From a virus, in the IMG/VR virus record IMGVR_UViG_3300046733_000644, positions 1-30,242 of that record: DNA of 30,242 bases, one strand, 5' to 3'. Position numbers and translations under genes: made by a program. The first letter of the stretch is position 1. Each line of letters opens with the position of its first letter. This document shows positions 605 to 30,242 of this stretch, piece by piece. The notes below the pieces were generated by a model. The model ran no database searches. It worked only from the letters and a program-made list of their open reading frames with translations, and was not told where the DNA came from.

Positions 605-1033
605 ATGCTTAATAACTTTTCAGATAATGTCAGTAATTCCAGAGCTGGAAGAAAAAGAATTTATTCAGACATACCATTGAATCTTACCATACACCCAAAT
701 ACAAAGGATTTGACTGTGGTTAAAGATATTGATGCTGTAAAGATTTCTGTTAAGAATTTGGTGATGACTAATTTTATGGAAAGACCTTTCCAACCTACTC
801 TTGGAAGTGGTGTGACAGGGCTTTTATTTGAGAATAATGATGCCTTCACTAAGGAATCAATAAAGGATGAAATATATAGAGTCCTTAAAGAACATGAAAG
901 CAGAGCAAACGGTGTACAAGTTGAAGTTTTAGATAACTCTGAGAGGAATGAATATTTAATAAATATAAAATTCAATGTTATCTTTTCTCAAATAAGACAA
1001 GAAATAGAATTCTACCTAGAAAGAATAAGATAA
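605..1033 (+). CDS. 25: Baseplate wedge subunit gp25
   Basis: The protein has 142 residues, close to T4 gp25 (about 132). It contains the family's conserved core: an ERPFQPTLGSGV stretch around residues 60-71, followed by an LFEN motif and an acidic helix. The C-terminal part alternates beta strands (VQVEVLDNS, YLINIKFNVIF). Known role: gp25 forms the inner wedge core with gp6 and gp53 and resembles the type VI secretion sheath-initiating protein TssE. The start is the first ATG after a late promoter. The stop codon directly abuts the gp6 ATG, so the two are translated from one message. Confidence 0.93.
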   Translation: MLNNFSDNVSNSRAGRKRIYSDIPLNLTIHPNTKDLTVVKDIDAVKISVKNLVMTNFMERPFQPTLGSGVTGLLFENNDAFTKESIKDEIYRVLKEHESRANGVQVEVLDNSERNEYLINIKFNVIFSQIRQEIEFYLERIR

Positions 1034-2875
1034 ATGGCAACACAATTTAATGTAACAGAACTGGATTTTGATAAGATCAAAGAAAATTTGATCACACATT
1101 TTAAGTCCTTACCCGATTCAAAATATAAAGATTATGACTTTGAAGGGTCAGGTCTCAACACATTGATGGATATACTGGCGTATAATACGCACTACAATGC
1201 TATCCATGCTCATACTGCGATCAATGAATCATTTCTTGATTCGGCACAGTTGAGACAGAACGTTGTCTCAAGAGCAAAACTGCTTTCTTATATTCCAAAA
1301 AGTATTCTATCTCCTTATTGTACATTGGATATTGTCATTCCTGGTTCCATTAATGATAATGCAGCTACCTATACACTTCCTTCACTATCAAAGGTTACAT
1401 CAAAGATCGATGGTATAACATACTCCTTTATAACCTTGGATGATCACGAAGCAACTTTAGATGGTAATAATGAATATGTATTTACTGCGGTTAAATTCTT
1501 CGAAGGTATTCTAAAATCACAAAGATTTATTGTTAGAGATTTTCTGAACAGTAATCAACAGTATATTCTCAAGGATGATACTGCTGATATTTCTACACTA
1601 AAGGTTAAATTATTTGATAATGATAATACAAATAATTTTACGGTCTATTCAAGGTTTACAACATTTAGTTCAATCGAATCGGATAGTGCAATCTATTTCA
1701 TAAGCGAGACTTCAGATGGAAATCATCAGATTGAATTTGGTAACAATATCTATGGAAAAGAACCACTTGGACAGAATATAATTGAACTTGAGTATATCAG
1801 CACATCAGGTGAGGCTGCGAATAACGCAACCACATTTACTTGGGCAACAAGTGGTATCACACCTAAATCAATTACTCTGAATACAAAATCAACTGGTGGA
1901 GCTCAGCGAGAATCCATTGATTCTGTTCGTTTCAATGCACCACTTACTTTCATATCACAAGAGAGAGGTGTAACAGTTGATGATTACATGGCACTCATTC
2001 ATAGAGATTATGAGCCCGCTGAAATTATTTCTGTTTGGGGTGGAGAAGACAATGTTCCACCTAGATACGGTGATGTATTTGTTGCGGTAAAGCCACATAA
2101 TGCTGAGACACTTACTTCTTCTCAAAAATTAGAACTTAGTGAATTATTAAAATCTAAAAATGTTGCATCCACATCAACAAGTATTGTAGACCCAGAATAT
2201 ACTTACATCTATTTTGAGATTATCTTTAAATATAATTCTAATCAGACTACTTTAAACAAATCTGAGATTCAGACCCAAGTGAAGGATACACTGCGAACAT
2301 TTAATGAAGATGAATTAAAGAAATTTAATGTTGTATTCCGACACTCAAATCTATTAACAAAAATTGATCTTACGGATATATCTATCATAAGTTCTTTGGC
2401 TAGAGTTTATGTTTATAAGAACCTTGATCTTGATGCAGTTAAAAATGTATCCTCAACTTTTGCTTTTAATCTACAACTTGATGGAGATATTGATCAGTCC
2501 GATTCAATGTTATCAAGCGATGTTTTCAAACAGAGTGGTTTCAATGTTAGATTAGCTGATGAAAAACTTAATTCTAGTGAAAGAAGAATTTACACATATA
2601 GACTTGATGCACAAAGAAATGAAGTCAAGGTTGATAGTAATATTGGAACTCTAAATCCATTGACAGGTGAGATTAATTTCTCTCCTATCTTTTCTGATGA
2701 TCGACCTAAAATAAAATTATATGCTTCTCCTGCTTCGAGTGACATTGTTGCTAAGAGAAATACATTATTACAATTGGATGCGGATAAAACAATAGTTGTA
2801 GCTGATAAAGATACCGTATCTATCTCAGGCGCGGCTGGAGCATCAGATTACATAACCTTTAATAGACAAGATTAA
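1034..2875 (+). CDS. 6: Baseplate wedge subunit gp6
   Basis: The protein has 613 residues (T4 gp6 has 660). It follows gp25 without a gap, the usual order. The N-terminus (DFDKIKENLITHFKS, then ILAYNTHYNAIHA and SFLDSAQLRQNVVSRAKLL around residues 45-85) is the hallmark of the gp6/J-like baseplate wedge family. The central GAQRESIDSVRFNAP and RGVTVDDYMALIHRDYEPAEI segment (about residues 288-330) is also typical. Known role: gp6 dimers make the iris-like inner ring that holds the six wedges and transmits the trigger for sheath contraction. The C-terminal 100 residues contain predicted strands. Only one base separates the stop from the next ATG. Confidence 0.93.
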   Translation: MATQFNVTELDFDKIKENLITHFKSLPDSKYKDYDFEGSGLNTLMDILAYNTHYNAIHAHTAINESFLDSAQLRQNVVSRAKLLSYIPKSILSPYCTLDIVIPGSINDNAATYTLPSLSKVTSKIDGITYSFITLDDHEATLDGNNEYVFTAVKFFEGILKSQRFIVRDFLNSNQQYILKDDTADISTLKVKLFDNDNTNNFTVYSRFTTFSSIESDSAIYFISETSDGNHQIEFGNNIYGKEPLGQNIIELEYISTSGEAANNATTFTWATSGITPKSITLNTKSTGGAQRESIDSVRFNAPLTFISQERGVTVDDYMALIHRDYEPAEIISVWGGEDNVPPRYGDVFVAVKPHNAETLTSSQKLELSELLKSKNVASTSTSIVDPEYTYIYFEIIFKYNSNQTTLNKSEIQTQVKDTLRTFNEDELKKFNVVFRHSNLLTKIDLTDISIISSLARVYVYKNLDLDAVKNVSSTFAFNLQLDGDIDQSDSMLSSDVFKQSGFNVRLADEKLNSSERRIYTYRLDAQRNEVKVDSNIGTLNPLTGEINFSPIFSDDRPKIKLYASPASSDIVAKRNTLLQLDADKTIVVADKDTVSISGAAGASDYITFNRQD

Positions 2876-2876
2876 T

Positions 2877-5800
2877 ATGGATGTACCTATAGCACAAGCC
2901 CGTGCGGCGACCACGGAGCCGAATACTGTGAACAGTTTAATACCTATTCACCTTAGAGAAGGCGCACAAAATTTCATTGATCTTCTAGAAGATTATTATA
3001 CATATTTAAATACTGATGGTCTTCCATCACAAGAAATAAATAATATTCTTGTAGAACAAGACATTGATAAAACTTCTCTTCAATATTTGGATTCTATTCA
3101 AAAAGAAGTTGCTATGAATGTGCCTGATGCGGTGGCATTTGATAGAGTATCTTTATATAAGAAAATTGTAAAGTATTATTTGACCAAAGGTTCAAGGGAT
3201 AGTATTTTAACATTCTTCAAGATTTTTTATGATGAGGCAGTGGTAGTTAGTTATCCAAAGGAATTTCTCTTTGCGCCATCACAGGGTAATTATGATACAA
3301 ATATCAATAGGTATTTAGATGATAAGGGTTTCCCATCTAGTAGAGATAAAATTCAAGATAGTTACTTTTGGCAGAATTTCTCTTATGTTATAGAATCTGC
3401 TCTACCTGTTGAAAACTGGAAAAGTAATTTCCTTAATCTTGTACACCCTGCAGGTTTTAAATTCTTTGGAATCATTGCCATCTTGATGGTGAGAACTAAT
3501 AAATGGATTGGTAGACATATCAGATTTGATGAAACTACCAGAAAATATGTTTTGACCGATGACTTTGATCCAAAAATATATAACTATCCATATCAAGTAA
3601 TAGACAGGGATGATTTAGACTGGATGAGGGGTTTGGTGCCACCTGCACTTCTCACAACAGTAGATAGATATTCTTTCAATGAAGGATATCACTCTCCCAC
3701 TTTCCAATTTGGTTTGGTACCACTTGATGTGCTTCTCAATATACTTATTATTAAAAACCTCGATGAAGATAGATTTAATCTATTCATAGAAGTGGTTCTT
3801 AATTATATTATTACTGATGGTGGTAATCATCTTTTAAGAGGTCGGGATACTTATTTACAGGATACAAAATTCCTAGATTCTGATGGTTTTAGCGAATTCA
3901 AAAATAGGGTGATTGGAGATTCTTTAGACGATAATCTTTTAATGTCTCAAAGGATTCTTCATAATGTTTCTGCTTTTGTTGACACGGAAATCACATTAGT
4001 ACAAGATACAGGAAGAAATATATTGAAAAGAGTTGCAGGACTTACATCAAGTGATACAACCAAAGATTTATATACTCAAGAATCCTATAATGCCGAGCTG
4101 TCATTTGTTAGAAATGAAGAATGTTGGGCGAAAGATATTAAAGGCATAACAGCCATATCACCATGGAATAGCAGATCTGGCAATCGGAGAGCCGGTGTCG
4201 CTATCACGCCAAGACATATTCTTTTTGTTGAACATGCAGATTATCATCTTAATGTGGGTGATACCATATATTTTGTAACACGAAATAACACTACAATATC
4301 TAGACAGATTATACAGCAGAAAGACCATCCAGTTCCGGGTTACACCTACGGAGATTTTAATGTAGCTTTATTGGATTCTGCGTTGCCCGATGATATTGAA
4401 ATTATGAAGGTTCTACCTGAATATTCATATAATTATTTTCCAATCGATTCTTATGGTGAGCCGAATGATTTCAATTTTGGCGCCAATTATACTGGCATTG
4501 ATGTACCATATGTATTCCACACTGATCAAGAAGAAAAAGCCTTGGTGAAAAAAATAAATCAGTTGCGATGGTTTCCTGTTACTGGAACTGATAATAATAG
4601 TCCCGAAACAGGATACGGCATGGCTTACTATGGAAATCTTCCATCTGGGATTACTTCAACCTCTGAATGGGGCGAAACAATAATATCGGGGGATTCTGGC
4701 AACCCCATAATGATGGTTCTAAAAGGTGAGGCTGTTCTTATTTCTTTGTTTACATTCTCCACGGCAGGACCTTTCCTTGGACAAGAAAGAAACATCAATG
4801 ATATCAATAAATTGATAGAAGATGTTGATAAACTTGGATCAATTGATAATTCTGAAGATATCACTAGTTTTGTTTATAATTCTAGAACCTTCACAAAAAC
4901 TGATTTTTTATTACAGGACAGACCCGTTTATAGGGGTGAAGGTTCTTTAGATTCTATTAGTTGGGATGGTAATGAATGGATCGAATATAGAGGAGGAGCA
5001 TTCAATACTCTGACAAATAGTAGTGAAGATACACCATATCCTTGGCTAAGGTTGGGATTATCAGAAGCTGCTGAAGGGTTTGAAGAGTTCACACCAAATC
5101 TTGTTTTTGGAACAGGATATAAATTAACACAATTCGATTTAACATCTGAAGATGAAGTTGAAATTTTTACACCTACTAAAGTTATAGAAGGTATCGATAC
5201 ATCATTTACATCTGCTGAAGGATATTCAACCAGCCCAGATAATCTTACTTCTAGTCACCCAGATTGGGAGGGTAGAGAAATCAGTTTTGATGAGAGCCCA
5301 GATACTGGTGATCAATGGACTAATGATCCTGCAAATGGTAAGATTTTTTGCACAGGTTTGTTTAAAAATATTAGAACAGCAAAACCTATTAATGCAAGAG
5401 TTGGTGACATTATTAAGGCTTCGGTAGATTTTGATTTTGGTACAACGCCTAATCAGGTTGATGATGAGAGAACATTCATGTTATCTTTATCTGATATAGG
5501 TCCATATCCAAACATTGATGAATCGGTACTGAATCATAGTGATCTTTCATTCTTTATTATATTCGCAGAAGCTCAAGCAAAACTTCTACAGAGAATTGAG
5601 GGTGGCGCAGACCAATTTGTCGGTGCACTTGGTCTTAATTCCATTCAAGGCGATGTTCTCAGACTAGAACTTGAAATTGATGTTAAGTCGACCGCCGCTG
5701 AAACAACTGTTACAGTTTCATACGAAAATATCTCAGATTCACCTAATTCATCTATGGCTAACAATCCCAAAATCATAACGGGAATTGATTCGGGCTTCTA

Positions 5801-7241
5801 TGATTCTTTACTTAATCGTGATCCAAGCATAAGTATGACACTTCAGGCAGGAGAATTGTCCGATACACTTATAGGTACAATCAATGTTTATAATGCATCT
5901 TTCAAGAATTTAGTGAGTTTTAATACCGAGCAGCCTGCAACAATTACTCCAACTTTATCATCTAATATATCTAATGAGAATGTTTTAGGTTTTGTTTATC
6001 GTAGTGGTACTTATACAAAAGGTAGGGAGTTAATTAATGATAGACCTTACTATTCTTTTGCGGATGAAGAAAATGAGATAAATTTTCAAATTCAATATAA
6101 TGCCAGTGTTGGCGACGGTGTTGAGATTGGTTGGGTAAGAACTACTGGTCAATCGTATCCGCTTCAGATTAATGTTGGAGACATTGAATATCCATGGCTA
6201 GAACTTGATGGTACTATATCTTCTGATTTTTCCGATATTCTTGGCCTCGGTGATTATATGGAAGTAACCAAAAAATCCTTTGAGTCAGATTTATCAAAAA
6301 CATTACTAACTCTTGGAACAGGCAGTGGTAATTATATTGTAGGAGAAGAAATCACACAAACAAACGCGGCGACAGGTGTTACTGTTACTTCTGAGGTATT
6401 CGCAATAAATCAAGGGAACATTGAAATATTGGATCAGACTGCAAGTGATGGAAGTGATACATTATTTTCCATTACAGAAACGCCACCAGATTACTTATAT
6501 ACTGCCAAACAAATTGATGCGGTAGATGAATCTCATTTTGATGTAATTGTTACAGATGATAGAAATTTTCAGATTATTAGTGACCTAGCAAATGATGGAT
6601 TGCTCTGGCGCCGGAAGGTCATATTTCTTAAAAAATCGGATGATGCGACTGATCCATTGAGATTTGGTAGCCATCGTGTTACATTTAATTGTACACTAAA
6701 TAATTCACCTGCTATCCTAAGAAATAATCATCTTCGTCTACGATATAGAGCTGATGCTAGCGGACAGCCATGGTTTGATTTTAATGTTGTATCCGGTGAA
6801 AACAGTTTTACATTCGATGTTTTTGATGGTAATCCTGCTCAAATTCTTTTTCTATCAACCTCAGCATCTGCATTCGATGTTTCAATCAGCAATCTGAAAA
6901 TTGAACAGATTGAAACACCGGTATCACCTGGAAACATCGTTGGAACTGATTCCAATGCTTCATATACTATGACTGGATCATCTCAATTAGTAAAACAAAA
7001 AAGAGATTCCTTTGATACCTCGGCAACACATATAGAAATTGAAGATACTAATTTAAATGGAAGATACGAATTAATATATAAATCATCTGACAAGTTAATG
7101 ATCAATAGACCTAGTTCTATTACTGAATCAGATTCTTTCACATCTAGAGTTAAATTGGGCATATTAGATACATATATGGCGCCTTCTAAATACAAAAAGT
7201 ATACAGAAAATATTCAACAGGTTAAAGATAAATTTTCTTAA
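2877..7241 (+). CDS. Giant baseplate/virion structural protein with trypsin-like protease domain
   Basis: The protein has 1454 residues. Residues ~1-210 (IPIHLREGAQNFIDLLEDYY; later YYLTKGSRDSILTFFKIFYDEA) resemble the N-terminus of large structural proteins that follow gp6 in marine T4-like phages; this is where I expect baseplate attachment. Residues ~415-655 look like a chymotrypsin-fold protease: ITPRH...VEHADY with His453, GDFNVALLD with Asp493, and SGDSGNPIMM with Ser607, then GEAVLISLFTF, in the order His-Asp-Ser. From ~665 on the protein is beta-rich. A module with FVYxSxTxTK, DRPxY and YPWL starts at residue 665 and again at 1039. Segments between and after may be sugar-binding beta sandwiches, which is only inference. 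No signal peptide is visible. The role in adsorption or surface digestion is inferred from position. T4 gp7 occupies a comparable place, but I see no clear gp7 signature. Confidence 0.8.
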   Translation: MDVPIAQARAATTEPNTVNSLIPIHLREGAQNFIDLLEDYYTYLNTDGLPSQEINNILVEQDIDKTSLQYLDSIQKEVAMNVPDAVAFDRVSLYKKIVKYYLTKGSRDSILTFFKIFYDEAVVVSYPKEFLFAPSQGNYDTNINRYLDDKGFPSSRDKIQDSYFWQNFSYVIESALPVENWKSNFLNLVHPAGFKFFGIIAILMVRTNKWIGRHIRFDETTRKYVLTDDFDPKIYNYPYQVIDRDDLDWMRGLVPPALLTTVDRYSFNEGYHSPTFQFGLVPLDVLLNILIIKNLDEDRFNLFIEVVLNYIITDGGNHLLRGRDTYLQDTKFLDSDGFSEFKNRVIGDSLDDNLLMSQRILHNVSAFVDTEITLVQDTGRNILKRVAGLTSSDTTKDLYTQESYNAELSFVRNEECWAKDIKGITAISPWNSRSGNRRAGVAITPRHILFVEHADYHLNVGDTIYFVTRNNTTISRQIIQQKDHPVPGYTYGDFNVALLDSALPDDIEIMKVLPEYSYNYFPIDSYGEPNDFNFGANYTGIDVPYVFHTDQEEKALVKKINQLRWFPVTGTDNNSPETGYGMAYYGNLPSGITSTSEWGETIISGDSGNPIMMVLKGEAVLISLFTFSTAGPFLGQERNINDINKLIEDVDKLGSIDNSEDITSFVYNSRTFTKTDFLLQDRPVYRGEGSLDSISWDGNEWIEYRGGAFNTLTNSSEDTPYPWLRLGLSEAAEGFEEFTPNLVFGTGYKLTQFDLTSEDEVEIFTPTKVIEGIDTSFTSAEGYSTSPDNLTSSHPDWEGREISFDESPDTGDQWTNDPANGKIFCTGLFKNIRTAKPINARVGDIIKASVDFDFGTTPNQVDDERTFMLSLSDIGPYPNIDESVLNHSDLSFFIIFAEAQAKLLQRIEGGADQFVGALGLNSIQGDVLRLELEIDVKSTAAETTVTVSYENISDSPNSSMANNPKIITGIDSGFYDSLLNRDPSISMTLQAGELSDTLIGTINVYNASFKNLVSFNTEQPATITPTLSSNISNENVLGFVYRSGTYTKGRELINDRPYYSFADEENEINFQIQYNASVGDGVEIGWVRTTGQSYPLQINVGDIEYPWLELDGTISSDFSDILGLGDYMEVTKKSFESDLSKTLLTLGTGSGNYIVGEEITQTNAATGVTVTSEVFAINQGNIEILDQTASDGSDTLFSITETPPDYLYTAKQIDAVDESHFDVIVTDDRNFQIISDLANDGLLWRRKVIFLKKSDDATDPLRFGSHRVTFNCTLNNSPAILRNNHLRLRYRADASGQPWFDFNVVSGENSFTFDVFDGNPAQILFLSTSASAFDVSISNLKIEQIETPVSPGNIVGTDSNASYTMTGSSQLVKQKRDSFDTSATHIEIEDTNLNGRYELIYKSSDKLMINRPSSITESDSFTSRVKLGILDTYMAPSKYKKYTENIQQVKDKFS
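4869..6219 (+). repeat. Duplicated coding module inside the giant structural protein
   Basis: Two copies of a ~65-75 residue module begin at 4869 (residue 665) and 5991 (residue 1039), 374 residues apart. Shared features, in order, are FVYxSxTxTK, a short spacer, DRPxY, a polar strand region containing I, and YPWLxL. The match is seen at protein level; the DNA copies have diverged, so the duplication is old. Confidence 0.6.
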
Positions 7242-7246
7242 TAATA

Positions 7247-7444
7247 ATGACACATATGAATTTTAAAGATGAAGCTCGGCTCGACCGAATTGAAGAAAAG
7301 ATTGATAAACTCACAAATGCTATCCATGCTTTGACCCATGGAGATGGTATACCCAGTCGTGAAAGACCTCTTGCCGCCTATGATGGGGGCGAAGGATGGA
7401 TCAAAGAAATAGGTATAGGATTAAATAATTTGGATTTTAAATAA
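7247..7444 (+). CDS. Small hypothetical protein, helical N-terminus
   Basis: The protein has 65 residues and I do not recognise it. Residues 5-30 (FKDEARLDRIEEKIDKLTNA) form an amphipathic, coiled-coil-like helix, followed by a Gly/Pro-containing tail. It starts 5 nt after the giant structural gene. Its stop overlaps the next start (TAATG), so it sits in a tightly packed operon, which supports it being real. An ATG at 7256 is an alternative start giving 62 residues; neither has a good SD. It may be a small structural or chaperone protein for its neighbour, but this is only positional inference. Confidence 0.6.
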   Translation: MTHMNFKDEARLDRIEEKIDKLTNAIHALTHGDGIPSRERPLAAYDGGEGWIKEIGIGLNNLDFK

Positions 7445-8286
7445 TGATAAAAAAAGCTATATATTCAAATTGGTCTAAACCAAACGATAGTAACTTTGCT
7501 GGCTTTAATAATGATGAGGCTTTCGCTGACAGTTTGCATTTATCTGTTTTATGTGCTAAGAAGTGGTTTGAGGAAGTAGAATTAATAACAGATACAAAAG
7601 GAAAAAAGTTAATTGATAAATATAAGATACCATTTGATAATGTAGTAGTCTGCTTGGATGATTATAATCACATAAGAGCTGAACATTGGTCTATTGGAAA
7701 GATGGTCGCTTGTTGTATGCAAAAATCTCCATTTATGCACATAGATAATGATGTGTTTTGGTTTAAGAAGCCGCAAGAAAGATTATTACGAGCAGATTGT
7801 AGTTTTCAGAATTATGAAAATGCAGATTATTTTGGATATAAATACCAAAGACCTCCTGCCATAGAGACATGTCCAATTAAAGAAATAGACTACACAGAGA
7901 CGAAAGCTTTAAATTGTGGTATCATAGGATTTAATAAATTGGATGTGTTACCAGAATGGATGGAATTAGCATTAAGATATATAGAGTGGTTTGATAATAA
8001 CACTAAATTACGAGATTGGTGCAAGCTGGCTCCCATAATGTTTGAGCAATATCATATATACCAGTTAGTAAAGAAAAACAATTATGATATTTCTGTTATT
8101 TCTTATGATTATGCTACATCAGTTATAGATACTCGTAAAAAGATGATAAATGATTCATTAGCAGAAGAATATGGATATACTCATTTAATTTCTGGAATTA
8201 AAAGAGAAAAGCACGTTGAGGAAAAAGTAAAAGCCAGATTAATAAGAGAAATACAAAACGCAAAAGAACGCAAAGAGTTTTCTTAA
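7444..8286 (+). CDS. Glycosyltransferase-like protein (DUF6734-like)
   Basis: The protein has 280 residues. The layout matches small GT-A-like proteins: an N-terminal KKAIYSNWSKP strand, AKKWFEEVELITD, and a central HIDNDVFWFK stretch in which D101-N102-D103 could be the metal/nucleotide-sugar DxD motif. ETKALNCGIIGFN follows around residues 151-163, as in family acceptor-site regions. From memory this resembles the DUF6734 family, whose substrate is unknown. It is translationally coupled to the small gene upstream (TAATG overlap). It sits between baseplate and terminase genes, not a T4 core position, and its codons are rich in ATA/TTA/AAA compared with gp18 or gp23, so it looks acquired. It could modify host surface sugar or a virion protein. 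Confidence 0.7.
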   Translation: MIKKAIYSNWSKPNDSNFAGFNNDEAFADSLHLSVLCAKKWFEEVELITDTKGKKLIDKYKIPFDNVVVCLDDYNHIRAEHWSIGKMVACCMQKSPFMHIDNDVFWFKKPQERLLRADCSFQNYENADYFGYKYQRPPAIETCPIKEIDYTETKALNCGIIGFNKLDVLPEWMELALRYIEWFDNNTKLRDWCKLAPIMFEQYHIYQLVKKNNYDISVISYDYATSVIDTRKKMINDSLAEEYGYTHLISGIKREKHVEEKVKARLIREIQNAKERKEFS

Positions 8287-8301: not shown

Positions 8302-8715
8302 ATGAAAAAAGATAAAACCGAAATGATGGCTGCATTGCAGTCACATCTTCCAGCTAAATTGGAAGAGATAAAGATGGAAGTTGCTCAACACGAGATTGTA
8401 GCCGATACTGAAGAGGATTATATTTACACAAGGGATAAGATCAAAGAACTAATTGCAAAGTCTGAAGAAGCAATTGATACCATGATGGCTTTATCACAAG
8501 AGACTGAACACCCAAGAGCCTTCGAAGTTCTTTCGGGTATGTTTAAGACTACTACTGATATGATGGATCAACTTATAACTTTACAAAAGAAAAGAAAAGA
8601 ATTAACACAATCAGAAGAACAAAAGGCTTCGGCTTCTGGTAATACTACAAATAATGCAATCTTTGTTGGTTCTACAACTGAACTACAAAAGTTTTTGAGT
8701 AAACAGAATGACTGA
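8302..8715 (+). CDS. 16: Terminase small subunit gp16
   Basis: The protein has 137 residues, shorter than T4 gp16 (164) but similar to marine homologues. It is almost entirely helical, with a central coiled-coil hairpin (residues ~35-110). It ends with the conserved C-terminal segment FVGSTTELQKFL that is typical of T4-type small terminases. Known role: a ring-forming regulator that recognises DNA and stimulates the gp17 ATPase at packaging initiation. The stop lies 8 nt inside the gp17 gene, which implies coupled translation. No SD and no late promoter are visible before the ATG, so it probably depends on upstream transcription. Confidence 0.88.
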   Translation: MKKDKTEMMAALQSHLPAKLEEIKMEVAQHEIVADTEEDYIYTRDKIKELIAKSEEAIDTMMALSQETEHPRAFEVLSGMFKTTTDMMDQLITLQKKRKELTQSEEQKASASGNTTNNAIFVGSTTELQKFLSKQND

Positions 8716-12668: not shown

Positions 12669-13196
12669 ATGGCAACATTTAAAGTAGACGATCTAAAATC
12701 TAGACTTCCTGGCGGAGGCGCTAGAGCAAATCTATTCAGAGCAACGGTTGAATTCCCTGGCTATGCCGGTGGAGATTCAAATCTTGTATCATTCCTATGT
12801 AAGGGCGCACAACTTCCAGCTTCCACAGTTGGTCAGATTGATGTACCTTTCAGAGGTCAAGTGCTAAAAGTCGCTGGTGATAGAACATTCGAGAACTGGA
12901 CAGTAACCATCATTAATGATGACTTATTTAAAGGACGCGATGCTTTCGAAACCTGGATGAATGGTATTAATAATCATAAGCAAAATCAAGGTTTCGTAAA
13001 TCCTCAGACTTACCAAACTGATATGATAGTTGAACAGCTTACCCGTGATAACATTGTTTCTAAAACATGCACGATCAGAGGCGCATTCCCTATCAACGTT
13101 TCTGCTATTGATCTCAGTTATGATACAACTGATGCAATTGAAGAATTCACTGTTGAATTTGCTTACCAATACTGGGAATCAAATACAACTTCGTAA
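12669..13196 (+). CDS. 19: Tail tube protein gp19
   Basis: The protein has 175 residues (T4 gp19 has 163). The N-terminal LPGGGARANLFRATVEFPG and FLCKGAQLPASTVGQIDVPFRG segments, followed by a VAGDRTFENWTVTIIND strand pair and an EFTVEFAYQYWE C-terminus, are the standard tube-protein fold signature. It forms the stacked hexameric tube through which DNA passes. The ATG is preceded by one of the clearer ribosome binding sites of the window (AAGGAA). A strong intrinsic terminator follows 15 nt after the stop, closing the gp18-gp19 unit. Confidence 0.95.
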   Translation: MATFKVDDLKSRLPGGGARANLFRATVEFPGYAGGDSNLVSFLCKGAQLPASTVGQIDVPFRGQVLKVAGDRTFENWTVTIINDDLFKGRDAFETWMNGINNHKQNQGFVNPQTYQTDMIVEQLTRDNIVSKTCTIRGAFPINVSAIDLSYDTTDAIEEFTVEFAYQYWESNTTS

Positions 13197-14832: not shown

Positions 14833-14860
14833 GGCGAATTGAATTGCCTCTCTGATATTT
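14833..14860 (+). other. GC-rich patch with weak hairpin before the sulfatase gene
   Basis: GGCGA at 14833-14837 can pair with TTGCC at 14844-14848 around a 6-nt loop, followed by TCTCTGATATTTT. The surrounding 14820-14850 is markedly GC-richer than its flanks. It may be a weak terminator for gp20, a junction of the inserted gene, or a translation-control hairpin. The gap between gp20 and the sulfatase (14779-14865) shows no late promoter. Confidence 0.3.
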
Positions 14861-14865
14861 TAATT

Positions 14866-16269
14866 ATGAAAAAACCTAATCTTTTAGTAATTCACTGTGA
14901 TGAATTAAATTTTAGGACACTAGGATGTTATAGAGATACCTTATCTAAAGATCAAGGTTTTATGTGGGGTGAGGATGGTGTTTGTGATACTCAGTATATT
15001 GATTCTATTGCGAGAGAGGGTGTTCTTTTATCTAAATTCTATGCAGCGACACCTGTATGTTCTCCATCTCGTGCATCGTTTATGACTGGTAGATATCCAC
15101 AAAATACAAATGTGACTGGAAATCATACTCAGATGAAAAAAGATATCATCACATTTGGTCACACATTAAGTAATTGGGGATATAAAACTGGATATGCAGG
15201 AAAATGGCATTTAGAGGGTAAAGAATATGGTGTAAAAGACCAAGTTAAGAATTGGTCTGTAGGTAAAGATCGAGGGTTCGAAGATCACAAATATATGTTC
15301 AATGATGGTCATTTCAAGAGAATATTTGAAAAAGATGGAGAAACAAAATTTGATTATTGGTCAAGAAGGGCTGATGAAAAAACATATGTGACCGATTATC
15401 TAACTGATAGATCAATCGAATTCATTGATGAGAATAAGGATAAATCATTTGCTTACATGCTTTCTATACCCGATCCTCATACACCTCATGAGGTAAGAGC
15501 ACCTTATAGAGATATGTTTAAAAATAAAGATTTTAAAGATACTCGGACTAAAAATCGTTGGATTGATTCAGAACATCCTCAGTTAAATGATAACTATTCT
15601 GCCGCGGCGGATAATGATTTAAATATGCACAAATATCTTGGAATGTTAAAATGCATTGATGAGAATATTGGAAGGATACTTCGAAAATTGAAAGATAATA
15701 ATTTATATGATAAAACAATCATTGTTTTTACATCTGATCATGGTTCTATGTTAGGAGAACATTCGAGAAAAGGTAAGGCAACAATATATGAAGCTTCTGC
15801 AAAGGTGCCATTTATGATTCGATATCCAAAGGAGATAGCCGCTGGTACTCAGATTGACCATGCAATGAATACAGTAGATTTTATGCCCACAATATTTGGG
15901 TTGATGGGAATAAATCCAAAAGTAAGAGAATGGGAAGGTAGAGATATGTCGAGTGTGATTAAAGGCGAAATATTAAATCAAGAAGATGATGTAGTATTTT
16001 TAAGGGGATATGTCGATGATCCAACATCATCTTGGGGTTGGCTATCGGCTATCACACCTAGGTATAAATTACTTGTAGATGATCGGTGTTTTCTGATTGA
16101 TATGGAGAAAGACCCAGATGAAACACAAAACTTCATTGATGATCCGAAATATAAGAATGTTATAAGATTTTTATCCAGCAAGATTTTAGAGTATGGAATA
16201 AAATATAAAGACCCTAAAATACATAGGTCAGATATCAACAATCAGATTCATAAATTTATGAATTATTAA
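14866..16269 (+). CDS. Type I (formylglycine-dependent) sulfatase
   Basis: The protein has 467 residues from ATG 14866; an in-frame TTG nine codons earlier is less likely. The sulfatase/alkaline phosphatase superfamily fold is clear. Metal-binding CDELN holds Asp12. The formylglycine signature CSPSR is at residues 65-69, with Cys65 the residue converted to formylglycine, followed by the auxiliary TGRYP. GKWH has Lys113 and His115, DPHTPH has His205, TSDHG has Asp291/His292, and Lys304 lies before YEASAKVPF. These are the known catalytic and metal sites, all apparently intact. It should hydrolyse a sulfate ester; the substrate cannot be read from sequence. No signal peptide is visible. A sulfatase-modifying enzyme would have to come from host or phage genes outside this window. 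The gene sits between portal and prohead-core genes, is AT-rich in codon choice, and looks acquired. Confidence 0.93.
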   Translation: MKKPNLLVIHCDELNFRTLGCYRDTLSKDQGFMWGEDGVCDTQYIDSIAREGVLLSKFYAATPVCSPSRASFMTGRYPQNTNVTGNHTQMKKDIITFGHTLSNWGYKTGYAGKWHLEGKEYGVKDQVKNWSVGKDRGFEDHKYMFNDGHFKRIFEKDGETKFDYWSRRADEKTYVTDYLTDRSIEFIDENKDKSFAYMLSIPDPHTPHEVRAPYRDMFKNKDFKDTRTKNRWIDSEHPQLNDNYSAAADNDLNMHKYLGMLKCIDENIGRILRKLKDNNLYDKTIIVFTSDHGSMLGEHSRKGKATIYEASAKVPFMIRYPKEIAAGTQIDHAMNTVDFMPTIFGLMGINPKVREWEGRDMSSVIKGEILNQEDDVVFLRGYVDDPTSSWGWLSAITPRYKLLVDDRCFLIDMEKDPDETQNFIDDPKYKNVIRFLSSKILEYGIKYKDPKIHRSDINNQIHKFMNY

Positions 16270-19897: not shown

Positions 19898-19922
19898 GAT
19901 TTAATCTTACTATTATAAATTT

Positions 19923-19954
19923 GAAGGGGTCTCGAAAGGGGCCCCTTCTTTTTT
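19923..19954 (+). terminator. Strong rho-independent terminator after gp23
   Basis: GAAGGGG at 19923-19929 pairs with CCCCTTC at 19942-19948. The stem extends inward through C-G and G-T pairs to a GAAA tetraloop (19934-19937), giving about 11 bp, and is followed by a run of T. It insulates the capsid operon from the next late unit. Confidence 0.93.
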
Positions 19955-19955
19955 G

Positions 19956-19963
19956 TATAAATA
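19956..19963 (+). promoter_or_regulatory. Late promoter (TATAAATA), leaderless geometry
   Basis: The octamer begins two bases after the terminator T-run and ends 5 nt before ATG 19969, so the predicted first base is the A of the start codon. This is the third exact 5-nt case in the window. Confidence 0.78.
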
Positions 19964-19968
19964 ACCTT

Positions 19969-20433
19969 ATGTCAAGAAATCTAACAAGTAATTATAATTT
20001 CCTATCCCCAACAGGATTCAAGCTTATTATTAATAGGGAAAAACTCTCCAATCTTGAATTCTTTTGTGTTTCTGCTACCCTTCCAGATTTATCTCTAGGT
20101 GAGGTTGAAGGTAACGTAAAACAACATAAAGGATATTTCACGGGTGATGTTACATTTGGTGGATTATCACTTACAGTAGCTATCGATGAAGATTTAGAGG
20201 TATATCAAGAATTATTCAAATGGATCATTGCCAATAGAGATTCTGGTAAACCGACTGTATATGATGCCACATTGGTAATTCTTACTAATCATCAAAATAT
20301 AAACAAACAAATTCAATTTAAGAATCTATTCTGCACAAGTGTTGCTGCTCTAGAATTCTCCACACAATCAACCGATGTTGAATATCTACAAGCTACGGCT
20401 GAGTTCAGATATGATGAGTTTAAGTTCGTATAA
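19969..20433 (+). CDS. Tail-tube-like virion structural protein
   Basis: The protein has 154 residues from ATG 19969. An earlier in-frame TTG would start inside the terminator and is rejected. The sequence NYNFLSPTGFKLIINREKLS, FFCVSATLPDLSL, then LTVAIDEDLEVYQELFKWI, ending LEFSTQSTDVEYLQATAEFRYDEF, follows the strand order of gp19/gp54-like tube-fold proteins. Such proteins are often annotated only as structural in marine T4-like phages. Placement between gp23 and the recombination genes suggests a low-copy tail or baseplate component made late. It is not gp19 itself, which is at 12669. The exact role (tube initiator, tail completion) is uncertain. Confidence 0.65.
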   Translation: MSRNLTSNYNFLSPTGFKLIINREKLSNLEFFCVSATLPDLSLGEVEGNVKQHKGYFTGDVTFGGLSLTVAIDEDLEVYQELFKWIIANRDSGKPTVYDATLVILTNHQNINKQIQFKNLFCTSVAALEFSTQSTDVEYLQATAEFRYDEFKFV

Positions 20434-27010: not shown

Positions 27011-29173
27011 ATGAATTACGAACTCCAATCCACCCTCGCGAGACTTCTCGCCAAAGAGAACATTGTCGTCACTCACGGCAACATGAAGACCGCAATGTTT
27101 GATGTTAAAAATCGTGTCCTTGGTTTGCCCATGTGGAAAAATAAAAGCAAGGATGTTTACGATATGTTGGTCGGACACGAAGTTGGTCATGCCCTTTACA
27201 CACCAGAAAAAGGAATTGAAGAATTTCGTTCCAAGTGCGGAGACATTCCATTTGATGTTTGTAACATCGTTGAAGATATTCGAATTGAACGAATGATTCA
27301 AGACACTTATCCTGGCTTGCCTCGAGTATTTCGAAAGGCTTACTCTGAGTTGGTTGAGGACGACTTTTTCGGAACCAAGGAAAAGAACATACCCGAATGT
27401 GGCTTTCTTGACCGCCTTAATTTGCGAGGCAAAGTTGGTTCTCTTTTAGATATTCCTTTGGACGCCGATGAAGAGGTGATCTATCAAAAGTGCCTCAAGG
27501 CTCAAACTTTCGACGATGTTCTAGACATTTGCCTAGAGATTAAAGATATGATTGAAAAAGAGCCAGAGTCACCACAAGACCAAAGCGAGAGCGAAGATTC
27601 TTCTGAAGAAGCCGAAGATGTTGACCCTTTACCTTCTGATCAAAACGAAGATGAGAATAACCAAACTGATGGTGATGACTCTAATGAATCAGAAACCGAC
27701 GATGGTTCTGAAGCCGAAGATGGCGAAGAAACAGATGATGGCGATGAAGGCATGCCTGATGCCGATGTATCCAGCTCCGATATTGGTTCTGAAACAGAAA
27801 ATGATGAGACCGAAACTTCTGCCTCAGATTCTAATAGTGGTGCAAGTGACGATATACCTAAAGAATTCGTTGCTGACACTATCAAAGATTTCGAAGACAA
27901 TCTAGGCGAAACCGTTGAGAGCATGACCGAGAGAAAATACACACCAGTCATGCTTCCTCGACCAAATTATATTTATGATTCAATTGTTGACTATGATATG
28001 TTGCGTAAAAATCGTGGCAGTTTTTTAGGATGGCTCGCAGGATGTGATTCAAATGTCTCACAAGATATAAACGATAAATTCATCAATTTCCGTAAGATTA
28101 CTAACAAGAAGGTTGGAACTCTGGTTCGTGAATTCGAACAACGCAAAGCGGCTTTCCAATACTCTCGTGCTACCGAAAGTCGTACCGGTAAATTGGATGT
28201 GAACAAGTTACACAATTACAAGTTGACCGATGAAATTTTCCTCTCGCAAACCAAACTTGCTGATTCGAAATCGCACGGAATGATTTTCCTATTGGATTAT
28301 TCTGGTTCAATGGCTAGAGTTCTTAAAGATGTCATTGACCAGACTCTCAACTTGGTTACCTTTTGTAAGAAGGTCGGAATTCCTTTTCGGGTTTATTCTT
28401 TTACTAACACATATGTAACGAATTCAAAATGCACCATTGATCCTACTTTCAATGAGGTCGATCTATCCAATGTGGTTCTGGTTGAACACATCACCAGCGA
28501 GATGAAAAAGACAACATATGAAGAGGCTTTCCAAGCCCTTTGGGCGACACGGAACACTCATTGGCAGGGCGGACAATATGATTCACTTGGAGGCACACCA
28601 TTAGATACCGTATTGACCATGATGCCAACCATCTTGACTGATTTTGTAAAGAAGACTGGAATTCAAAAAACCACTTTTGTTACCCTAACAGATGGTGACA
28701 GTGCAGGTATCTCTACGAATCACGGCTGGGACGAAATGCTTAGTGGAAGATTGAAAATCAAATCTGGCGGCAAGATTCATGACATTCCACGTTATAGATC
28801 AACTAATAGCTTGATGGAAATGATTAGTGATTTACCTGGCATATCTACTATCGGTTTCTTTCTTCCAAACCACAAGAAAGAACTCAACCGACTTCTAAAT
28901 CGTTTTCATCGCACCACCACCGATGTTAAAAAAGCCAGAAAATTACATGCCAAGAATGGCTTCTCAAGTGTGGAGAACCGCGGCTATGGTGCCTATTACA
29001 TCTTAGATTCAGATGTCGGAATTACCGATAATGATTTTGTAACAAGCATTCAAGAAGACGCAGCCAACTCTCGCAAGGCTCAGAACAGACTCGCTAAACA
29101 GTTCGGCGCCCATAACCAAAAGGCTCGCCAAACACGAATTCTCCTAACTAGTCTGGCTGAAAAGATTGCCTAA
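27011..29173 (+). CDS. HExxH and VWA-domain protein, CobT-like
   Basis: The protein has 720 residues. Residues 56-60 read HEVGH, a zincin motif, followed by VEDIRIERM (87-95), where the Glu could be the third zinc ligand. Residues ~183-275 form a highly acidic, low-complexity linker rich in E, D and S. The C-terminal ~300 residues are a von Willebrand A domain: MIDAS motif DYSGS at 429-433, a Gly/Thr loop GGTPLD, and TDGD beginning at Asp561. Acidic linker plus C-terminal VWA is the layout of the CobT subunit of aerobic cobaltochelatase, and the next gene encodes a CobS-like AAA+ ATPase. Marine T4-like phages carry such pairs. CobN is not in the window, so a chaperone-like MoxR-VWA role is at least as likely as cobalt insertion. 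Confidence 0.85.
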   Translation: MNYELQSTLARLLAKENIVVTHGNMKTAMFDVKNRVLGLPMWKNKSKDVYDMLVGHEVGHALYTPEKGIEEFRSKCGDIPFDVCNIVEDIRIERMIQDTYPGLPRVFRKAYSELVEDDFFGTKEKNIPECGFLDRLNLRGKVGSLLDIPLDADEEVIYQKCLKAQTFDDVLDICLEIKDMIEKEPESPQDQSESEDSSEEAEDVDPLPSDQNEDENNQTDGDDSNESETDDGSEAEDGEETDDGDEGMPDADVSSSDIGSETENDETETSASDSNSGASDDIPKEFVADTIKDFEDNLGETVESMTERKYTPVMLPRPNYIYDSIVDYDMLRKNRGSFLGWLAGCDSNVSQDINDKFINFRKITNKKVGTLVREFEQRKAAFQYSRATESRTGKLDVNKLHNYKLTDEIFLSQTKLADSKSHGMIFLLDYSGSMARVLKDVIDQTLNLVTFCKKVGIPFRVYSFTNTYVTNSKCTIDPTFNEVDLSNVVLVEHITSEMKKTTYEEAFQALWATRNTHWQGGQYDSLGGTPLDTVLTMMPTILTDFVKKTGIQKTTFVTLTDGDSAGISTNHGWDEMLSGRLKIKSGGKIHDIPRYRSTNSLMEMISDLPGISTIGFFLPNHKKELNRLLNRFHRTTTDVKKARKLHAKNGFSSVENRGYGAYYILDSDVGITDNDFVTSIQEDAANSRKAQNRLAKQFGAHNQKARQTRILLTSLAEKIA

Positions 29174-29310: not shown

Positions 29311-29324
29311 ATACATATAAGATT
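29294..29324 (+). repeat. 31-bp promoter-leader repeat, copy 2
   Basis: Identical to 26976-27006. Together the two copies give the CobT-like and CobS-like genes almost the same promoter and leader, predicting matched expression although the genes are separate transcription units. Confidence 0.85.
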
Positions 29325-29328
29325 GATT

Positions 29329-30242
29329 ATGAAAAATACACTAACAAACGAAAATATCGCCTCCATCCACCAAGCGATGGACCTTACTAAAGCCCCGGTT
29401 AAGAAAGCCGCAATCATTGATGTCGCCGAGAGCCTCGGTCTCGACCGTTCTCTCGTGCACAAGACCGTGCGCACGATGTTCTCCAAAGCCTCGAAACGAG
29501 GTTATTACACATTTCCTGTTTCGGAGGTAACTGGTGAATTCCTTACCGCCGACACCCCTGTTTCGACCCCCGCGGTTCGAACTCCTGCTGAGAATTTCAA
29601 ACTGGCGACCACAGTTGCCTCGGTTGTGGACGATGAAATTCACATTCCAACAGTTGATTCCACATATGTCAAGTGGGGTGAATTCAAAACCGTGGCTGAT
29701 ATTCTTGCCGCTGGCATTTTCTACCCATTATATATTGAGGGCATGTCTGGCAATGGTAAAACATTCATGGTCGAACAAGCCTGTGCGAAAGCCAAGCGAG
29801 AATATATCCGGGTTCAGATTTCGCCTGAGACTGACGAGGACGATCTTATCGGTGGCTTTCGACTCATTAATGGCGAGACAATCTACCAAAAGGGACCCGT
29901 AGTCAAGGCTATGGAACGTGGAGCAGTTCTACTGGTTGACGAGATTGACCGTTCAACCAATAAAATCATGTGCCTCCAAGGGGTTCTTGAGGGCAATCCT
30001 GTTCTCTTAAAAAAGACAGGAGAGGTCATTACTCCAGCCCGCGGCTTCACGGTTATTGCCACCGCAAATACTAAAGGTCGTGGTTCTGATGACGGTCGAT
30101 ATACCGCGGCTTCAATCATTGACGATGCCTTCCTAGAACGTTTCGTAGCCACAATCGAACAGGAATACCCTGCGGCTCGCATTGAGAAAAAGATTTTGGT
30201 CAAGCATGCCGAAAAATATGAGGTGAGCGATCTCGAATTCAT
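29329..30242 (+). CDS. MoxR/CobS-like AAA+ ATPase (3' truncated)
   Basis: 304 codons are visible and the frame is open to the end of the window. Residues ~20-63 (KAPVKKAAIIDVAESLGLDR, then VHKTVRTMF) look like a helix-turn-helix-type domain. A linker follows, then the AAA+ core: Walker A GMSGNGKT (138-145), a MoxR-type DEDDLIGGFRL segment, Walker B LLVDEID (201-207), sensor 1 TVIATANT, and DAFLERF with the likely arginine finger. This matches CobS/MoxR ATPases, including the genes annotated cobS in marine T4-like phages. Its partner should be the VWA protein just upstream. The start is the ATG placed relative to the promoter exactly as in the preceding gene. Codons are GC-richer than in the recombination genes. 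Confidence 0.88.
   Translation, partial: MKNTLTNENIASIHQAMDLTKAPVKKAAIIDVAESLGLDRSLVHKTVRTMFSKASKRGYYTFPVSEVTGEFLTADTPVSTPAVRTPAENFKLATTVASVVDDEIHIPTVDSTYVKWGEFKTVADILAAGIFYPLYIEGMSGNGKTFMVEQACAKAKREYIRVQISPETDEDDLIGGFRLINGETIYQKGPVVKAMERGAVLLVDEIDRSTNKIMCLQGVLEGNPVLLKKTGEVITPARGFTVIATANTKGRGSDDGRYTAASIIDDAFLERFVATIEQEYPAARIEKKILVKHAEKYEVSDLEF

Follow-up and report, generated by a model that had tools for sequence, protein, structure and literature searches.

The 1454-residue protein encoded directly 3' of the gp6 homologue in this marine, T4-like phage is, judged from its sequence, a gp7-like baseplate wedge protein, and residues 399–661 of it are a predicted chymotrypsin-fold serine protease domain (clan PA, S1-like) whose triad is invariant among divergent homologues. 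The same domain is attached in other contigs to gp15, a protein of the other tail end, suggesting that the particles of some phages are equipped with a protease. We lean towards the view that it is an active, virion-borne and mobile protease acting on extracellular proteins. The window is the whole 30,242-base IMG/VR virus fragment, and the features on which the argument draws are the following.

605..1033, plus strand: gp25 homologue, context (PF04965, 1e-10; PHROG 261)
1034..2875, plus strand: gp6 homologue, context (PF21379; PHROG 219, E 1e-145)
2877..7241, plus strand: gp7-like baseplate wedge protein with protease domain, 1454 aa (open reading frame; PF23786; PHROG; T4 profile)
2877..4070, plus strand: gp7 core, residues 1–398 (50–55% identity to protease-free gp7 proteins, L055–L066)
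4071..4860, plus strand: predicted chymotrypsin-fold serine protease domain, residues 399–661 (AlphaFold, Foldseek, triad conservation)
4233..4235, plus strand: predicted catalytic His453, His57 equivalent (invariant in 35/35; context RHILFVEHADY)
4353..4355, plus strand: predicted catalytic Asp493, Asp102 equivalent (invariant in 35/35; aligned to D102 of 1a5i; context YGDFNVALLD)
4692..4697, plus strand: Asp606-Ser607, Asp194-Ser195 equivalents, in GDSGNP (both invariant in 35/35)
4861..7241, plus strand: C-terminal modules of the gp7-like protein, residues 662–1454 (sequence)
8302..8715, plus strand: gp16 terminase small subunit, context (PF11053; PHROG 445)

Predicted fold and catalytic residues

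Scans of viral contigs yielded a wide family from which a 19-sequence alignment was built for modelling, and with it AlphaFold predicts a double beta-barrel of the chymotrypsin type for residues 399–661 (pLDDT 82.7, pTM 0.85). The best 50 Foldseek matches to this model in the PDB are all S1 proteases (probability 1.00, E ~1e-6, query TM 0.44–0.52), as the original prediction of a trypsin-like fold had anticipated; the refuting outcome named there for the fold, something other than a double beta-barrel, did not arise. The best BFVD match is a protein of an uncultured Caudovirales phage. An earlier model from three sequences had a pLDDT of 40.7 and Foldseek matches that were noise, and a single-sequence search of the PDB with the window domain returned nothing meaningful. 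Most matches from sequence profile searches of the PDB were S1 proteases, plasminogen activators among them, with marginal E-values (0.02 and above); the best one (plasminogen activator 1a5i) had the triad aligned. The window domain alone gives no match in Pfam or PHROGs and falls below the curated Trypsin and Trypsin_2 cut-offs; Trypsin_2 is matched by one of the 19 family members (E 0.0046), and the family has no model in Pfam, NCBIfam or PHROGs.

His453, Asp493 and Ser607 (codon 4695–4697; context SGDSGNPIMM) stand at the residue numbers first assigned to them when checked in the translation of the open reading frame 2877–7241. In an alignment of 35 divergent homologues, 20 from phage and other viral contigs and 15 from bacterial genomes, all three and D606 are kept in every member, down to ~26–30% identity. 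Among the 211 well-filled columns, just 8 show no variation (R412, N431, R446, H453, D493, L499, D606 and S607), and the probability that random placement would put all three triad residues among them is ~4e-5; the triad is thus not a chance occurrence. Doubt over activity had been raised on account of a supposed two-residue offset of the aspartate, which does not exist, as DFNVALL matches DIALLQL of the plasminogen activator position by position, with D493 at Asp102.

The motif around the serine is of the GDSGGP type, and the glycine of the oxyanion hole (residue 193, Gly605 in the window) is kept in 32 of the 35; L010, L012 and L030 have Tyr or Asn there, and these members may, on this substitution, be weak or inactive. 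Family members vary at position 189, and for this reason no cleavage specificity is claimed. One might guess that R412 or R446, both invariant, pairs with D606 in place of the zymogen N-terminus. Ratios of dN/dS in the protease domain between relatives are roughly 0.1–0.4, the mark of purifying selection, while dN is higher there than in the gp7 core, such that the domain evolves faster than its chassis.

The gp7 and gp15 chassis

The Pfam Baseplate_wedge model (PF23786) matches residues 87–197 of the 1454-aa protein above cut-off (E 5e-9), PHROG baseplate wedge families match it as well, and a profile of the N-terminal part finds T4 gp7 residues 650–898 (2e-8; hhalign 1.4e-6) and the gp7-like protein of phiM9 (1.6e-10). 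The same profile gave no significant match to T4 gp53 or gp8, and gp53, which had been considered as the chassis, was rejected on that comparison. Genes for gp5-like, gp25 and gp6 proteins lie upstream, and both the homology to the gp7 core and the position after gp25 and gp6 agree with the T4 gp7 family. The original prediction called this a baseplate protein neighbouring gp6, and the protein can be assigned as gp7-like from the T4 profile match.

The protease does lie inside a structural protein, though it is better described as a C-terminal addition than as an embedded insertion. The protease-free gp7 proteins of L055–L066 end at 430–450 aa, are 50–55% identical to the window protein over residues 1 to ~343–353, and are followed by a fibre-like gene and then gp8; past the shared residues, the window protein continues into the protease and then ~790 further residues. 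A repeated unit, SFVY..RPVY..W(D)G..W..PW, occurs within residues 662–1454, for which a search of the phages collection found no match. The search for the same architecture elsewhere that had been proposed was carried out on viral contigs and recovered the whole arrangement in L002, L003, L004, L006, L007 and L008, independent contigs from other metagenomes, with close relatives at 56–61% identity; gp7 fusions vary in length, with the whole open reading frame spanning 1116–1583 aa. C48C1, whose terminase is the most similar among phage records (65.6%), has a 316-aa gp7-like and a 258-aa gp15-like protein, both without the domain. Its gp7-like homologue, placed after gp6 (OQ984149.1, 125349–126299), is annotated 'head closure Hc2', which is probably a misannotation.

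The second chassis is gp15, the tail terminator or tail sheath stabiliser, which carries the domain at its C-terminus in L010, L011 and L012 (PHROG 227, 5.8e-69; T4 gp15, 1.6e-31). These domains are ~40–47% identical to that of the window, and identification of the chassis as gp3 was rejected in view of the T4 comparison. A scan for gp15 kept 80 loci, and the domain is present only in L010–L012 among all gp15 genes tallied. The gp15 proteins of L069–L074 are 88–92% identical to that of L010, and those of L069 and L072 end at ..TTTFGFDD, exactly where the L010 protein continues into a linker and the protease, so that the L010 protein reads as a clean terminal fusion between near relatives. In other marine T4-like phages (L132–L135), gp15 bears C-terminal module chains of ~500–700 aa with NG..P.Y..W.L units that resemble units in the C-terminal part of the window gp7; the ends of gp15 and gp7 seem to be general acceptors of modules.

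In T4 the gene order is 6-7-8-...-14-15-16-17. With P denoting the protease domain, the order is 6-7::P-16-17 in the window and L003, 14-15::P-16 in L011 and L012, and 14-15-8-10 in L010 and L069–L074, with P on gp15 in L010 only. In the window, gene 16 thus comes after gp7::P and a DUF6734 gene, whereas T4 has it after gp15. As read from these gene orders, the junctions 7-16 and 15-8 would be the two reciprocal products expected of one rearrangement relative to T4, and the protease copies may have mediated it. All fusion contigs are metagenomic fragments, among which no single genome with the two junctions together was seen. Some of L069–L074 stem from samples that also yielded contigs with the gp7 fusion, and the occurrence of both contig kinds in the same sample in two cases (3300024273 and 3300048548) is suggestive only that the two junctions belong together.

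Several other genes of the window merit mention. L003 otherwise matches the window here but lacks the DUF6734 gene (7444–8286; PF20508, E 2e-42) that separates gp7::P from gene 16. A sulfatase (14839–16269; PF00884, E 6e-52), whose CSPSR formylglycine motif at residue 74 is intact, sits between the portal and prohead genes, which is unusual for a T4-like structural block, and is possibly another host-surface enzyme. The major capsid gene is followed by a second tail-tube-like gene (19921–20433; PHROG 45, 9e-29; PF06841 weak), which is additional to gp19 at 12669–13196. The genes at 27011–29173 (PHROG 'peptidase' 459) and 29323–30240 (PHROG 'porphyrin biosynthesis' 249, an AAA ATPase) presumably resemble the CobT/CobS-like pair of cyanophages.

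Spread of the domain family

Among bacterial genome contigs, a scan with a narrow alignment found 0 loci and one with a broader alignment 15, in Planctomycetota, Verrucomicrobiota, Lentisphaerota, Kiritimatiellota, Bacteroidota (including Bacteroidales) and Peribacteraceae MAGs. Matches to fn3, cadherin and peptidoglycan-binding domains, and weak ones to the Por secretion tail, occur in several of these relatives. In an unrooted tree, the gp7-fused forms make one clade (100/99) and the gp15-fused forms another (99/97), and the bacterial and most other viral forms lie across a branch (91/100) from the tail fusions. Free-standing copies occur near a tail-fibre gene (L017), an internal virion protein gene (L030) and, in a bacterial contig that is probably a prophage (L038), a tape-measure gene. 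The only annotated phage genome with a relative in the phages collection is MW202510; its copy is part of a hypothetical protein of 411 aa, encoded two genes past one for a structural protein. The proteins of L024 (6279–8879) and L027 (7845–9137) combine the protease domain with repeat tracts (SAETSAE or PVGVGTT), and a C-terminal hydrophobic segment in L027 suggests a membrane anchor.

Function and known systems

There is reason to think that residues 399–661 would form a catalytically competent serine endopeptidase of chymotrypsin fold, belonging to a family uncatalogued in Pfam, NCBIfam and PHROGs and joined to a gp7-like wedge protein on its C-terminal side. T4 gp7 is present in six copies and T4 gp15 is a hexamer (PMC3004832), and by analogy with the former about six protease domains would be held at the periphery of the baseplate. 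There they could cut extracellular proteins of the host surface layer, outer membrane or matrix during approach and attachment, a role parallel to that of tail depolymerases acting on polysaccharides, and the domain itself would be a portable cassette attached to different tail proteins. We infer a place on the virion because the domain is fused to a conserved gp7 core and to gp15 and its free copies lie near tail and virion genes; the accessory domains and weak Por matches of the bacterial relatives point to an extracellular habit, and the invariance of H453, D493, S607 and D606 in 35 homologues, together with purifying selection, argues for activity. Of the three functions originally proposed (digestion of host surface protein, self-processing of tail fibre or baseplate, and repurposing for binding), extracellular proteolysis best fits these relatives as judged by sequence. 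Counting against it are the attachment to gp15 in three contigs, since the head-proximal tail end is no obvious site for attack on a host surface, the replacement of residue 193 in L010, L012 and L030, and the single annotated genome with a relative in the phages collection. That the domain also sits on gp15 speaks for a general function carried on the particle and against one confined to the contact face of the baseplate.

Viral chymotrypsin-fold proteases often process themselves, and the domain, which sits inside a long chain and has an extensive C-terminal part after it, might cut that chain or adjoining tail proteins in assembly and so free itself or the C-terminal 790 residues. Such self-processing is nonetheless unlikely, because in the gp15 fusions the domain ends the chain, leaving no further part to be freed, and relatives build both gp7 and gp15 without it; the secreted-looking bacterial relatives also suggest a substrate in trans. 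The fold might instead be retained for binding or spacing with catalysis dispensable, in keeping with the replaced residue 193 and with the other C-terminal modules that tail proteins gather (gp15 in L132–L135, for example), but this seems quite improbable given a triad that is conserved more strongly than almost any other column.

Given that the cassette is found in the window and L003 on a gp7 that precedes gene 16, and elsewhere on a gp15 followed by gene 16 (L011, L012) or by a gene 8-like gene (L010), with junctions reciprocal relative to T4, it could also be a passenger that spreads because late genes can exchange it at their 3' ends, proteolysis itself bringing little advantage. We regard this as very improbable, as purifying selection and an invariant triad require a function of the product. 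That there is no protease fold and the motifs resemble one by chance is barely credible: the window domain lacks a Pfam match and the three-sequence model was poor, but the 19-sequence model is confident with only S1 proteases among its best 50 listed matches, one member matches Trypsin_2, and S1 proteases dominate the PDB profile matches. Returning to the extracellular protease, a fuller picture, offered tentatively as plausible rather than probable, is of a new protease family that serves as a portable cassette of contractile tails, carried in six copies on gp7 or gp15 as the protein-cutting counterpart of the depolymerases, with the junctions 7-16 and 15-8 marking a large rearrangement of the tail block.

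Most known virion enzymes for breaching host surfaces act on polysaccharide or peptidoglycan, and a protease fused to T4-type tail core proteins would add a protein-degrading class. Routine annotation misses this family because Pfam, NCBIfam and PHROGs hold no model of it, yet it is spread across phages and PVC-group bacteria. The swap between gp7 and gp15 indicates that one predicted enzyme can be accommodated at either end of a conserved contractile tail and provides a concrete case for how tails gain functions. No report of this architecture was found in the open-access literature, which was searched for protease domains in phage baseplate and tail proteins.

The domain shares with S1 proteases of clan PA its predicted fold, the His-Asp-Ser order, the GDSGxP motif and the Asp194 equivalent, but differs from them in lacking a curated Trypsin or Trypsin_2 match in the window, in lying within a phage tail protein, and in having extra conserved motifs in its family (RN near the start, SPWNS and DQEEK). 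Sinorhizobium phage phiM9, of the T4 superfamily, likewise encodes a trypsin-like serine protease beside structural genes (Sm_phiM9_102, Trypsin_2; PMC10783043), but that protein is a stand-alone one of 230 aa, unfused, and phiM9 gp53 and gp15 are of ordinary size; kinship was rejected, the comparison showing no significant similarity to the window domain. T4 gp5, the tail lysozyme, is also an enzyme built into a baseplate protein, whereas it cuts peptidoglycan, belongs to the central hub, is present in three copies and has a different fold. T4 gp7 itself matches the N-terminal part of the window protein through its residues 650–898 and occupies the same position after gp6, but the window protein lacks the first ~640 residues of T4 gp7 and gains the protease and ~790 residues more.
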